A stretch of DNA of 35,999 nucleotides from an uncultured archaeon (GTDB lineage: Archaea > Halobacteriota > Methanosarcinia > Methanosarcinales > Methanoperedenaceae), in assembly GCA_902386255.1 (NCBI GenBank), contig CABMII010000052.1, forward strand, positions 1-35,999, read 5' to 3'. The position numbers and the translations under genes were made by a program. Numbering within the stretch: position 1 is the stretch's first letter; each line of letters begins with the position of its first letter. Under the pieces are notes generated by a model. That model did no database searches. It saw nothing but the letters and a program-made list of their open reading frames with translations, and was not told the DNA's origin. Below are positions 8,226-34,240 of this stretch, in pieces.

Positions 8226-9140
8226 ATGATTGTCCTATCCGGAGGAACCGGCACGCCCAAGCTTATCCAGGGTCTTCGTAAGCTTGTTCCTGATGAGGAG
8301 ATAACAGTAATCGTGAATACGGCTGAGGATATTACAGTTTCCGGGAATCTTATCTCGCCTGATGTGGACACGGTATTATACCTTTTTTCAGGCGCTCTCG
8401 ATACTTCAAAATGGTGGGGGATTAAAAATGATACTTTTCACACGAATAAGGCTTTACAAAAAATGGGTCTCAATGAAAAGCTCATGCTAGGGGATGCTGA
8501 CCGCGCCACATGTATTTTCCGCTCGGAATTAATGCGAAAAGGAGCAAGCCTGACAGCGGCGACACAACGGCTTTCATCGGCGCTCGGAATAAAAGCCAGT
8601 ATTCTTCCCATGTGCGATGAAAAAGTGGATACCATTGTGAATACCCCGCAGGGGCTCATACATTTCCAGGATTTCTGGGTTGGAGCCCGCGGCGAACCCG
8701 ATGTTCTGGATGTTAAAATTTCGGGAATTGAAAAGGCAAAACCTACAAAAGAAGTGTTGGCGGCGCTGGAATCCGAAGATAATGTGATAATCGGGCCGAG
8801 CAACCCCATAACGAGTATCGGGCCTATTCTTGCGTTAAAAGGCATGAGGAATCTATTAAAAAAGAAAAAAGTGCTTGCAATAAGCCCGATAATCGGTAAT
8901 TCCCCGGTCAGCGGACCTGCAGGAAAATTGATGAAAGCCTGCGGATTTCCAGTATCATCAAAAGGAGTTGCAGAATGCTACGGGGATATCCTGGATGTCA
9001 TGGTAATTGATGAAAGGGATGATGTGGAAGAAAATGACTTTCCAGTCAAAGTGGTTAAATACGACACCCTTATGACCTCGGTTGAAAAAAGTAAAGCGCT
9101 TGCACAACGTGTCCTTGACCTACTTGGGGATATTCGATAG
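8226..9140 (+). CDS. cofD: 2-phospho-L-lactate transferase (coenzyme F420 biosynthesis)
   Basis: CofD joins a phospholactyl (or phosphoenolpyruvyl) group from the guanosine-diphosphate-activated donor to the deazaflavin Fo, giving F420-0. The protein is 304 residues, typical of the family. It opens with the glycine-rich GGTGTPK at residues 6-12, followed by the conserved 'NTAEDITVSGNLISPDVDTVLY' region and later 'ISPIIGNSPVSGPAGKLM'. A GAGGGT site inside the end of the preceding permease gene serves as ribosome binding site, and the gap between the genes is one base, so cofD is part of the exporter operon. F420 is the electron carrier used by Mtd encoded at 18322-19149. Its end overlaps the convergent winged-helix gene by 21 bp. 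Confidence 0.96.
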   Translation: MIVLSGGTGTPKLIQGLRKLVPDEEITVIVNTAEDITVSGNLISPDVDTVLYLFSGALDTSKWWGIKNDTFHTNKALQKMGLNEKLMLGDADRATCIFRSELMRKGASLTAATQRLSSALGIKASILPMCDEKVDTIVNTPQGLIHFQDFWVGARGEPDVLDVKISGIEKAKPTKEVLAALESEDNVIIGPSNPITSIGPILALKGMRNLLKKKKVLAISPIIGNSPVSGPAGKLMKACGFPVSSKGVAECYGDILDVMVIDERDDVEENDFPVKVVKYDTLMTSVEKSKALAQRVLDLLGDIR

Positions 9141-9437
9141 CAGTACAAGCCCCCTGTCAGTGAGCCTGAAAGTGTCGCCTTCAATTTTGAGATAATTCCC
9201 TTTCATCAGGAAATCGGTCTGGAAATTTAACACAGCATCATCCACGCCGACTTCTTTTTGAAGCTCACCCTTCTTTTTCCCGAATACCCCGATGGCTTTA
9301 ATCATCCTGCGCCTGACGGGATGTTCAAGCGCCTTGACCATGAGTTCATGGTCTGCGACTTTTGCCTCGCGCACAGTGGGACGGCGCTCAAGCATTGCTT
9401 CAAGTTCGTCCTCACTTATTTCCGGCATATCACTCAT
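9120..9437 (-). CDS. Small winged-helix DNA-binding protein
   Basis: A 105-residue protein with an acidic N-terminal helix (about 1-25) followed by an ArsR-like winged helix. 'EHPVRRRMIKAIG' near residues 38-50 resembles the first helix of ArsR/TrmB-type regulators. The 'KKKGELQKEVGVDDAVLNFQTDFLMKG' region looks like the helix-turn-helix, and 'YLKIEGDTFRLTDRGLVLL' like the wing. No metal-binding cysteines are seen. It overlaps the upstream dodecin-like gene by eight bases and is surely cotranscribed with it. Its 3' end overlaps cofD by 21 bp on the other strand. Regulation of its own operon or a flavin-related response is possible but speculative. Confidence 0.8.
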   Translation of the reverse strand: MSDMPEISEDELEAMLERRPTVREAKVADHELMVKALEHPVRRRMIKAIGVFGKKKGELQKEVGVDDAVLNFQTDFLMKGNYLKIEGDTFRLTDRGLVLLSNIPK

Positions 9438-9648
9438 TGCCGCTCAGGAACATCTCTACCCTGCAAAGATAGGCAGCTATTTTGTTGTCCCTGATTTCCA
9501 CATCAAAACCCTTTATAGTGGCTTTTGTAATCGTGCCTTTCCGTTTGAAAATCGGAAGGTCTGACGCCTCTTCTATCGCATTTTTAGCTGCTCTCTCCCA
9601 GCTTTCCGGGGATGAGCCCACGGTATCGATTATTTTGACAAATGGCAT
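9430..9648 (-). CDS. Dodecin-like small protein
   Basis: A 72-residue protein with the dodecin pattern: an opening strand (FVKIIDTVGSSPESW), a helix (ERAAKNAIEEAS), and two strands ending 'DVEIRDNKIAAYLCRVEMFL'. Dodecins form hollow dodecamers that store flavins between paired tryptophans. Here the only Trp is W17 in the first helix; the position that usually holds the flavin-stacking Trp in strand two appears to be Lys or Thr, so flavin binding is uncertain. A GGGTGA site 7-12 nt upstream supports the ATG at 9648. The gene overlaps the winged-helix gene by eight bases, forming a two-gene operon. Confidence 0.75.
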   Translation of the reverse strand: MPFVKIIDTVGSSPESWERAAKNAIEEASDLPIFKRKGTITKATIKGFDVEIRDNKIAAYLCRVEMFLSGNE

Positions 9649-9741
9649 TTAATTTCACCCATGATATGTTGGGCTGGAAGAGTAATAAAGGTCACTGTGT
9701 TCGATGAATAGCAATTTTCAATGCGATTGTAAAATGAAAAA

Positions 9742-9790
9742 ACATATATCATAGTCTAACGTAGTCCAACATAGTATAACATTGTCAAAC
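9742..9790 (+). promoter_or_regulatory. vapBC promoter with four 10-bp direct repeats (probable autoregulatory operator)
   Basis: A TATA-like ACATATATC at 9742-9750 is followed without gap by four 10-bp units: ATAGTCTAAC (9751-9760), GTAGTCCAAC (9761-9770), ATAGTATAAC (9771-9780) and ATTGTCAAAC (9781-9790). Positions 2, 4, 5, 8, 9 and 10 are invariant. A start site about 25 bp after the TATA box falls inside the array. Repeat spacing of one helical turn places all units on one DNA face, fitting cooperative binding by the AbrB-type antitoxin encoded next. Binding is inferred. Confidence 0.6.
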
Positions 9791-9802
9791 AAGGTGAGAG
9801 AT

Positions 9803-10027
9803 ATGCAAAAAATAAGGATGAGCAGAAAGGGACAGGTAGTCATACCCGCGGATATCAGGAAAAAATATAAATTGAAAGAGGGAGAGATGCTTTTTTTAGA
9901 GGAAGAAGAGGGTACGATTAAATTAATGCCCAGAACAAAACTCAGATCGCTTTGCGGCACGTGGCCGAACCTTGATATTGAAGCTGTGACAAAAGAAATA
10001 ATAGAAGATCGCAAGAGGGATAGATGA
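9803..10027 (+). CDS. vapB: AbrB/SpoVT-type antitoxin (VapB-like)
   Basis: A 74-residue antitoxin. Residues 2-45 form a swapped-hairpin AbrB/MazE DNA-binding domain with the usual 'RMSRKGQVVIPADIRKKYKLKEGEML' pattern. The C-terminal 30 residues (from about LCGTWPNLDIEAV to ERDR-like charged end) would wrap and inhibit the PIN toxin. The ATG at 9803 was chosen because GGTGAG lies six bases upstream and the domain begins right there; an earlier TTG at 9782 falls inside the repeat array. It overlaps vapC by four bases (ATGA), the standard toxin-antitoxin arrangement. Autoregulation through the four 10-bp repeats is likely. Confidence 0.88.
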   Translation: MQKIRMSRKGQVVIPADIRKKYKLKEGEMLFLEEEEGTIKLMPRTKLRSLCGTWPNLDIEAVTKEIIEDRKRDR

Positions 10028-10521: not shown

Positions 10522-11346
10522 CTAATCTCTTCTCTTCACCACATCCGCTGCCAGCGTCTTATAATATTCTCTTGTAATCCTTCCCGAAAGCACTAAAGCT
10601 TCTTTCAACAATGCCTCGTCCTTCAGTTTATTTCCAATAACCCTCTCTGTCTCCACAATTTTTAACAATACAGCAGATTTCTCAAACTCATCAACAATTC
10701 CGTCAGCCAGCCCTATTGCCCTCTTTATGAACCCGTAACTTCGCTCATCGTTCAATAATGAAAGCAGTGATGCGATATCGCAGAAAGCGGAAATAAGAAA
10801 AACAGGCTCGACATCTTTACTTTTTTCGATCAACTCAATTGCGCTCCCAAGCAATTCATGCGCCCTTTTGGGATTTGCGCCAGCCTGCAATCTGGCAATG
10901 TTCCGGAAAGCTGATGAGCGGTATGTGTTCAAAGGGATTTTTTCTGACAAATACAGGGAATAAGAAATGAGTTTTTCATCCTTTCTATCAATGCCGATTT
11001 TGGCAAACGCGACCACAAGCTCATGAAGCGCCACTGAAAGGTCTAGATTGTTATCGATTCTTTCTGTAATTTTAACCCCCTCATTGAGCTTCTCTTCATC
11101 TTTCCTGTTCACCCCGATTTTTGCCATAGCCCGGATAATCTCCACATAAGCCTTTGATGGGTCATCGGTAACAAGCCCCGCAGTTTTAATGGCTTCTTCA
11201 AGATACCAGGGGTCATTTGACCGCACCGCTTCCATTGATAAAATTCCCACGATATTGCGGTATTTTCTTGACTTCTCTGCCGGATCCTGGATTTCCGATG
11301 CGGAAGAAATCATACTCAATATCCGGTTTTTCTTTTCATCTGTCAT
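10522..11346 (-). CDS. Alpha-helical repeat protein of unknown function
   Basis: A 274-residue protein predicted to be almost entirely helical, without signal peptide or membrane span. Repeats of roughly 45-50 residues are visible through recurring phrases such as 'AKIGVNRKDEEKLNEGVKI' and 'AKIGIDRKDEKLISYSLYLSEKI', then 'LRLxAG.NPKRAHELLGSAIELIEK' and 'VxNKLKDEALLKEALVLSGRI'. This resembles TPR- or HEAT-like superhelices used for protein binding. I do not recognise a named family. It stands alone on the minus strand, convergent with vapBC. Upstream lies a dispersed inverted repeat and the divergent MTH1187-like gene. No ribosome binding site is obvious before the ATG. Confidence 0.75.
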   Translation of the reverse strand: MTDEKKNRILSMISSASEIQDPAEKSRKYRNIVGILSMEAVRSNDPWYLEEAIKTAGLVTDDPSKAYVEIIRAMAKIGVNRKDEEKLNEGVKITERIDNNLDLSVALHELVVAFAKIGIDRKDEKLISYSLYLSEKIPLNTYRSSAFRNIARLQAGANPKRAHELLGSAIELIEKSKDVEPVFLISAFCDIASLLSLLNDERSYGFIKRAIGLADGIVDEFEKSAVLLKIVETERVIGNKLKDEALLKEALVLSGRITREYYKTLAADVVKRRD

Positions 11347-11370: not shown

Positions 11371-11499
11371 TTGCGCCTGATATGAAAAAACAACTAACTC
11401 GTACGAACTGATACGAACTCACGCCGCAAGAGTAGTTCGCTGTTAATGTTTGTGTCGTTTTTCATTATCTTTGCAGTGCGCGATTTATTCACTGCCAGG
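11371..11499 (+). repeat. Dispersed inverted-repeat element, copy 1 (internally deleted)
   Basis: Shares about 130 bp of aligned sequence with the copies at 23015 and 34073. It begins TTGCGCCTGATATGAAAA, carries CTAACTCGTACGAACTGAT and ACGAACTCACGCCG, and ends with a hairpin GCAGTG (11473-11478)/CACTGC (11490-11495). Compared with copy 3 it lacks about 17 bp of the right arm, where GAGTTCGTACGAGTTCGTAT should be. The element fills most of the gap between two divergent genes and holds no ORF. Confidence 0.85.
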
Positions 11500-23014: not shown

Positions 23015-23223
23015 CTTTGCGTTCTTGGCGCTTGGTATAAAAAAATCAACAACTAACTCTTACGAACTGATACGAACTCACGTCGTCGGAGTTCGTACGA
23101 GTTCGTATTAGTTCGCTGCAAATGTTCATTTTGTTGTTTTTTCATTGTTATCTGTGAACTTCATTCATAGATGACTTTGCGGTGTGCGATTTTCTTCACC
23201 GCAGAGCCGCGAAGGTCGCAAAG
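23015..23223 (+). repeat. Dispersed inverted-repeat element, copy 2 (most complete)
   Basis: About 209 bp filling most of the 352-bp gap from 22911 to 23262. It is bounded by CTTTGCGTTCTTGGCGC on the left and CCGCGAAGGTCGCAAAG on the right, which are imperfect inverted repeats. The core (23050-23115) is a near-palindrome holding TACGAACT twice on one side and AGTTCGTA twice on the other. A second hairpin GCGGTG (23179-23184)/CACCGC (23197-23202) lies near the right end. No ORF is present. Copies are at 11371 and 34073. Confidence 0.88.
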
Positions 23224-34072: not shown

Positions 34073-34240
34073 CTTTGTACTTGGCGCGCCTGATATGAAA
34101 AAACAACTAACTCGTACGAACTGTTACGAACTCACGCCGTCAGAGTTCGTACGAGTTCGTATTAGTTCGCTGTTAATATTCTATGAACTTTGTTCATAAC
34201 CGACTCTGATGTGTGCGATTTTAGTCACCGCAAAGGTCGG
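34073..34240 (+). repeat. Dispersed inverted-repeat element, copy 3
   Basis: About 168 bp aligned with copies 1 and 2. The core 34104-34169 has the complete near-palindrome (TACGAACT twice, then AGTTCGTA twice). The left module TGCTTTGTACTTGGCGCG matches copy 2's CTTTGCGTTCTTGGCGC with changes, and the right ends CACCGCAAAGGTCGG. The second hairpin seen in copies 1 and 2 is degraded here (GATGTG opposite CACCGC). It occupies most of the gap between glyS and thiC. Confidence 0.87.

Follow-up and report, generated by a model that had tools for sequence, protein, structure and literature searches.

The four gapless 10-bp units at positions 9751-9790 of the window (the whole stretch of 35,999 nucleotides that was analysed, from an uncultured methane-oxidising archaeon of the Methanoperedenaceae) are, judged from sequence, very probably the autoregulatory operator of their own vapBC toxin-antitoxin pair. 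The units start at 9751 (ATAGTCTAAC), 9761 (GTAGTCCAAC), 9771 (ATAGTATAAC) and 9781 (ATTGTCAAAC), and each contains a GT-N3-AC dyad with three free central bases. The same array was returned by Tandem Repeats Finder and by a separate repeat search, and on re-reading of the window T2, G4, T5, A8, A9 and C10 proved constant across all four units, as had been noticed initially. The coordinates of the array, the promoter parts and the genes are collected in Table 1.

Table 1. Features at and around the vapBC promoter in the window
Feature	Positions	Strand	Basis
CofD	8226-9140		Pfam
ORF	9120-9437		no Pfam match at 0.001
Dodecin	9430-9648		Pfam
Purine-rich stretch, BRE-like	9733-9742	+	sequence, 5' of the TATA box
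TATA-like box, CATATATC	9743-9750	+	sequence
Putative operator unit 1, GTCTAAC	9754-9760	+	sequence, repeat search, homologous loci
Putative operator unit 2, GTCCAAC	9764-9770	+	sequence, repeat search, homologous loci
Putative operator unit 3, GTATAAC	9774-9780	+	sequence, repeat search, homologous loci
Putative operator unit 4, GTCAAAC	9784-9790	+	sequence, homologous loci
Ribosome-binding site, GGTGAG	9793-9798	+	by eye
VapB, AbrB/MazE-type antitoxin, 74 aa from ATG	9803-10027	+	PF04014, 42.1 bits
VapC, PIN-domain toxin, 138 aa	10024-10440	+	PF01850, 45.7 bits
ORF	10522-11346		no Pfam match at 0.001

The gene names given to the pair (AbrB antitoxin and PIN toxin) were right, as both proteins score above the Pfam cut-offs (24.7 bits for MazE_antitoxin and 23.6 bits for PIN). 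The antitoxin is small and carries a SpoVT-AbrB/MazE DNA-binding domain, as in type II vapBC systems, and its family profile matches AbrB-family chains of solved structure, among them 5itm and 2l66. The order antitoxin then toxin, with the toxin gene overlapping the antitoxin stop by 4 bp, is likewise that of a vapBC operon. In the toxin alignment (42 toxins), D7, E45 and D96 are each acidic residues conserved in 41 of the 41 homologs having that column and D115 in 39 of 41, and a PIN toxin with these acidic active-site residues is predicted to be a nuclease. The source genome groups with Candidatus Methanoperedens, in which the nearest VapB homologs were found, among them a 93% identical protein (L088) from Ca. 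Methanoperedens sp. BLZ2.

The array is far beyond chance, because its best four-unit consensus score at period 10 (35 of 40, column consensus over 9653-9802) was reached by none of 2000 dinucleotide shuffles of the same region (shuffle maximum 31, mean 25.5), and this excess supports the operator reading. Other periods between 6 and 15 attained at most 0.71 of their own maximum, versus 0.88 for period 10. Three GTN3AC words at a pitch of 10 bp occur nowhere else within the window. In the source genome (G000; 2.6 Mb in 172 contigs), the two-unit word TAGTNYAACNTAGTNYAAC is found without mismatch at this locus only, in two overlapping places, and with up to two mismatches in 4 places versus 7 for the backward control. 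The shorter word TAGTNYAAC, which the initial annotation had put forward as a marker for other AbrB/PIN pairs, is uninformative on its own because the backward control is commoner (151 matches versus 40), and the other homologous pair of the genome (L053) has GTAAGA-type words in its place.

In order to see how far the arrangement recurs, homologs of the antitoxin were collected, and matches with an E-value of 0.001 or better were present in 26 of 34 genomes of the same family. The upstream DNA of the better homologs was read and 44 loci were kept, including seven that belong to different families within the order; 45 places had E < 5e-27, and the one not counted (G003:C33:58049, stretch L060, whose best match is a repeat of L027) holds a truncated antitoxin with neither a start codon nor an array. 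Also left out were L063 (no start), L040 and L041 (truncated; L041 does have GTTGAAC-ATA-GTTAAAC) and the weaker matches L047, L048, L049 and L068-L073. Further weaker matches were not counted, and 19 stretches were inspected. L029 and L030 have identical upstream sequences and were each counted. The last 62 nt before each start codon were scanned, with 300 dinucleotide shuffles as control, and in the pairs and triples counted per locus a unit was accepted with a mismatch at one of its four fixed letters.

A GT-N3-AC pair was found at a pitch of 10 bp in 23 of the 44 loci (shuffle mean 0.94) and at a pitch of 9 bp in 14 (0.93), three units at a pitch of 10 bp in 17 (0.01), and TTAC-N2-3-GTAA in 22 (0.36). 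Any of the pair-10, pair-9 or TTAC-GTAA classes was present in 39 of 44 loci, as against a shuffle mean of 2.12 and a maximum of 7, which again argues for an operator; the 9-bp and TTAC-GTAA classes were set after inspecting the loci, and the 10-bp GTN3AC classes (23 and 17 of 44) follow from the window alone. When the rest of the window was scanned in the same way, 8 of its 578 blocks of 62 nt had any class, and the three-unit array was in none of them. Loci of the same family without such an array, which had been named as what would speak against the proposal, were thus mostly not seen. The five loci in which the scan found no array class (L038, L042, L056, L059 and L183) weaken the reading; four of them, L038, L042, L056 and L059, do have GTCTTAC or GTAAG words when read by eye.

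The arrangement is kept in homologs down to about 40% identity, with differing words. Arrays of the closest relatives are of the GTCYAAC type (L025, L026 and L027), or have GTTTAAC (L031) or GTACAAC-GTAAAAC (L028). In a second branch (L044, L046, L057 and L065), GTAAAAC-ATA-GTAAAAC-GGT-GTAAAAC or near variants end exactly at the start codon, and a third (L035, L039 and L184) combines GTCTTAC with GTAAGAC or GTAAGAT at steps of 9 and 10 bp, with orientations mixed. Two further loci (L072 at G029:C14 and L073 at G007:C3) have a stop inside the antitoxin match and upstream repeats at a 10-bp pitch that lack the leading G, which may mean that operator and antitoxin are decaying together.

The strict pattern GTN3ACN3GTN3ACN3GTN3AC was also searched independently of the antitoxin. 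Over the 34 genomes it matched 13 places, which are 12 separate arrays since two places in the window overlap, and the backward control matched 1 place. Of these 12 arrays, ten precede the start of an antitoxin of the window VapB family by 0-21 nt, in support of the operator reading; the remaining two lie inside a succinyl-CoA-ligase-like gene (identified by eye from its translation) and where an unrelated gene ends. When 237 genomes of the class were searched, 14 strict arrays turned up outside the genus, in 20 places (backward control 49), and none of them had an A1-type antitoxin within a distance of about 1.5 kb. This lack of enrichment outside the genus, and of A1-type antitoxins nearby, counts against the reading; the strict tandem form at AbrB genes is seen in the genus only. 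The flipped 9/10-bp form extends to other families of the order (L174, L178, L180, L184 and L185). Among the strict arrays beyond the genus are some that are just simple repeats, as would suit a functionless expansion of simple sequence by slippage. We consider this origin scarcely credible for the window array, given the concentration of strict arrays in the 34 genomes at one gene type and the like position and pitch, in different words, among the distant homologs. Two long 10-bp GTN3AC tandem arrays were noticed in the same order (L214 in G157 and L215 in G160), and no A1-type antitoxin was present in the stretches around them. By eye, the former stands 5' of a lipoprotein-like ORF and the latter between ORFs, one of them transporter-like and on the other strand; these arrays may be operators of other regulators.

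The initial annotation had also proposed a toxin-antitoxin operator for an AbrB-type antitoxin, with one-turn phasing over the probable transcription start, and this part stands. It had set the direct array against palindromic operators, and that contrast has to be given up, as every unit is itself a GT-N3-AC dyad and relatives have direct, inverted and mixed units at a pitch of 9-10 bp. For instance, L029 and L030 have GTCTAAC-ATA-GTTAGAT-ATG-GTTAGAC, in which the second and third units are flipped and the pitch is kept, and GTTTTAC in L061, L062 and L064 takes the place of GTAAAAC in L044, L046 and L065. Direct and inverted arrangements are two faces of one dyad array. Because a flip keeps GT and AC, it would be tolerable to a symmetric VapB dimer on duplex DNA; flipped units should look alike to a two-fold symmetric AbrB domain, and recognition in RNA should not be expected to tolerate them. 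The flips in place among relatives therefore support a DNA operator.

They also bear on a role of the repeats in the mRNA leader, as VapC binding or cleavage sites or as an element of translational control. The downstream units probably do lie within the leader, and many relatives have their last unit directly against the start codon, yet units are flipped at the same place among relatives, unit 1 is upstream of the expected transcription start, and the predicted fold of the leader RNA was no better than that of shuffles (z 0.50), a null result that itself favours the operator. A leader function is accordingly highly improbable.

A closer alternative keeps the operator and moves the dimer: repetition of GT-N3-AC every 10 bp creates a second dyad, AC-N3-GT, between units, and a VapB dimer centred there would read two adjacent half-units across an AC-N2/3-GT centre, so that the array would be a series of overlapping palindromes. 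Among gapped palindromes with three central bases, tallied in 47 loci including eight more distant ones (L114, L126, L128, L132, L139, L147, L155 and L160), AC-N3-GT (52) ranks after GT-N3-AC (85); TA-N3-TA reached 51, probably through AT-richness. In several relatives the only such sequence ahead of the start codon is CTTAC-N2-GTAAG, as this placement would have it. Against it, single units flip within arrays (L061, L062, L064 and L029), which a fixed pairing of half-sites would forbid, many arrays of the GTAAAAC branch start with GT and finish with AC at the start codon, and in a paralogous antitoxin family two whole units lie 22 bp from each other, and neither can be seen to adjoin a partner. 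We regard the shifted centre as rather unlikely, and return to the dimer centred on the GT-N3-AC unit.

The array itself, where it lies, how it recurs at related genes and the flipping of units among relatives are observed; from there we infer that VapB binds with one dimer on each unit, that VapC bridges the dimers, that the promoter is repressed and where transcription starts. Archaeal transcription usually starts about 26 bp after the TATA centre, so that the start is expected near 9772-9776, around unit 3. The purine-rich stretch before the TATA-like box may correspond to the BRE of archaeal promoters. Each 10-bp step would offer one GT-N3-AC dyad fitting the two-fold symmetric AbrB-type domain of a VapB dimer, and four dimers could sit side by side on nearly one DNA face, from after the TATA box to before the ribosome-binding site; taking 10.5 bp per turn, the rotational drift over four sites is about 51 degrees. 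A polymerisation of VapB along one face of the DNA is plausible. VapB, and more strongly VapB with VapC bridging adjacent dimers, would block the TBP/TFB/RNA polymerase complex or the opening of the start site, and loss of the antitoxin would free the promoter. The 44 homologous loci were also scanned upstream for a crude TATA pattern: in 23 of them it begins 5-15 bp ahead of the first chained unit (11 bp in the window), in 7 the distance is 22-57 bp, and in 14 no such pattern was found. The automatic finder of unit chains mis-registered some loci (e.g., L034, L066 and L053), and the array counts given above come from the separate scan.

If each pair regulates itself, related pairs in one genome should differ in their words. 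Some genomes do have two or three closely related pairs (e.g., G004, G007 and G016), and words were compared within genomes, with reverse complements taken as the same word. Among the 14 within-genome paralog pairs with strict words in both members, 11 have no word in common (e.g., in G000, G012 and G024), as expected of insulated autoregulators and in support of the operator reading. It is weakened by the three pairs that do have a common word, in G004 (L025 and L058), G016 (L034 and L052) and G017 (L032 and L056). These three pairs, together with the GT..AC frame common to all the loci, would suit an array that serves another regulator, one controlling several toxin-antitoxin loci jointly; this we judge very unlikely, because most pairs have no strict word in common, the words track the antitoxin subfamily, and the exact two-unit word is confined to one locus in the source genome.

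The words may in turn be tied to the antitoxin itself. In a tally restricted to loci that have two units or more (36 kept and 8 of the 44 left out; the rule was made after seeing the data), all 17 loci whose VapB has a basic residue at position 5 or R at position 8 have at least two GTT half-sites, which are present in only one of the 19 loci without these residues (L061). On an antitoxin tree that is poorly resolved (66 columns, with residues 5 and 8 excluded), the GTT trait changes three times and the basic residue 5 three times, and a pair test of the link had 2-3 independent pairs, too few to reach significance. The link between residues 5 and 8 and the operator word is only suggestive, a lead to follow. 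As a tentative extension, which we would sooner doubt than accept, the array could be an orientation-free one-turn series with a fixed GT..AC frame, whose inner bases would form a subfamily address set by one or two residues of the first strand and loop of the antitoxin (basic 5 or R8 with the GTT half-site), and whose length (2-5 dyads) would set the number of VapB dimers bridged by VapC, giving a tunable counter of toxin to antitoxin.

Kis has a MazE-type fold and Kid is a MazF-type toxin. At the parD operator, as described in the available text, the toxin bridges antitoxin dimers and so gives cooperative binding to half-sites (PMC4803016); this operator differs from the window array in having two regions with half-sites. 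The same source describes Escherichia coli mazEF, in which an antitoxin of AbrB/MazE fold acts on a multi-part 'alternating palindrome' operator over the promoter (PMC4803016). A row of adjoining short dyads at a promoter is also what the window has (four GT-N3-AC at a 10-bp pitch), and the K-12 operator can be divided by eye into GATATATAC, TGTATCTAC and ATATGATAG in 9-bp steps. It differs in its core GTATCTAC, which is GT-N4-AC, in its unequal parts, its MazF rather than PIN toxin and its bacterial promoter, whereas the window has four near-equal GT-N3-AC units in exact register. The E. coli core word is absent from the window units, which have three central bases; the array would thus work like the mazEF operator without being the same site.

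For Shigella flexneri, the accessible part of the report describes an AbrB-type VapB with a PIN toxin, the octameric VapBC binding two sites that overlap promoter elements (PMC3384007), which lends the operator reading further support. Those sites are separate, one at -35 and one at -10, and an octamer apparently occupies each of them; that part of the report describes no tandem one-turn array (PMC3384007). For AbrB itself, the texts as available give a pseudo-consensus TGGNA-N5-TGGNA (PMC11497800) and a bipartite TGGNA in B. subtilis (PMC11135676); such sites resemble the window array in being a direct repeat at one-turn (10 bp) pitch read by an AbrB fold, and differ in that AbrB is a global regulator rather than an antitoxin, with another word in two copies.

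Multi-part MazE-type operators (PMC4803016) and one-turn direct repeats for AbrB (PMC11497800) are therefore already known, as far as the available portions of these papers go. New here is an archaeal form of four clean units, orientation-free, in which most paralogs within a genome have different words. A literature search covering titles and abstract openings, with few subscription papers, found no description of such operators or of these promoters, and no text joining AbrB antitoxin, direct repeats, operator and autoregulation. The apparent covariation of words and candidate readout residues across the 44 loci bears on how related antitoxins stay insulated from one another, and simple swaps could now test the DNA code of such an antitoxin of AbrB type. 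The array can also serve to predict operators of this kind in anaerobic methane oxidisers.

The source genome has 15 AbrB-like Pfam matches. A window-type operator precedes the window pair and C126:7855, two GTN3AC words at a pitch of 13 bp precede L013 and L019, one precedes L010, and no GTN3AC word was found upstream of the remaining ten. L018 (G000:C156), an AbrB gene adjoining a PIN-like ORF (by eye), has three GTAAGAA-type words at an 8-bp pitch upstream, perhaps a different operator register. Four weak relatives of the antitoxin were found in viral contigs.

In a second AbrB antitoxin family (86-aa type, from Methanoperedens and a relative), the gene is closely preceded by GTAAGAC and GTCTTAC at a distance of 22 bp from each other, roughly two turns of the helix. 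This layout was found in 7 of 9 inspected loci (L189-L194 and L197, not L201 and L202), with GTAAAAC for GTAAGAC in L193; L010 of the source genome belongs to this family and has one of the two words intact. In the last 60 nt before 51 more distant genes, many of them bacterial, at least one GTN3AC was found in 32 loci (single-base-shuffle mean 7.7) and at least two in 16 (0.5). From these counts and the 86-aa family, the GT-N3-AC dyad seems general for such AbrB antitoxins, with a pitch that varies by subfamily. In Acidobacteria (L126, L134, L160 and L132), AbrB-type genes follow GTCTTAC and GTAAGAC with 6 bp between them, and in Peptococcaceae and Pelotomaculum (L143 and L161) the two words are 9-10 bp apart before AbrB-type genes, which suggests a dyad common to both domains with its pitch set by the subfamily.

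A dispersed hairpin element with facing 10-bp GAGTTCGTAC units was also noticed in the window, at 34114-34169, at about 23060-23115 and at 11401-11420. A 20-bp word of this element has 54 matches in the genome with up to two mismatches (backward control 0), and one element can hold two of them. Folded as RNA, the stretch 34095-34180 reaches -31.5 kcal/mol (z -4.79), and the element looks like a REP or MITE family that is unrelated to the vapBC operator.
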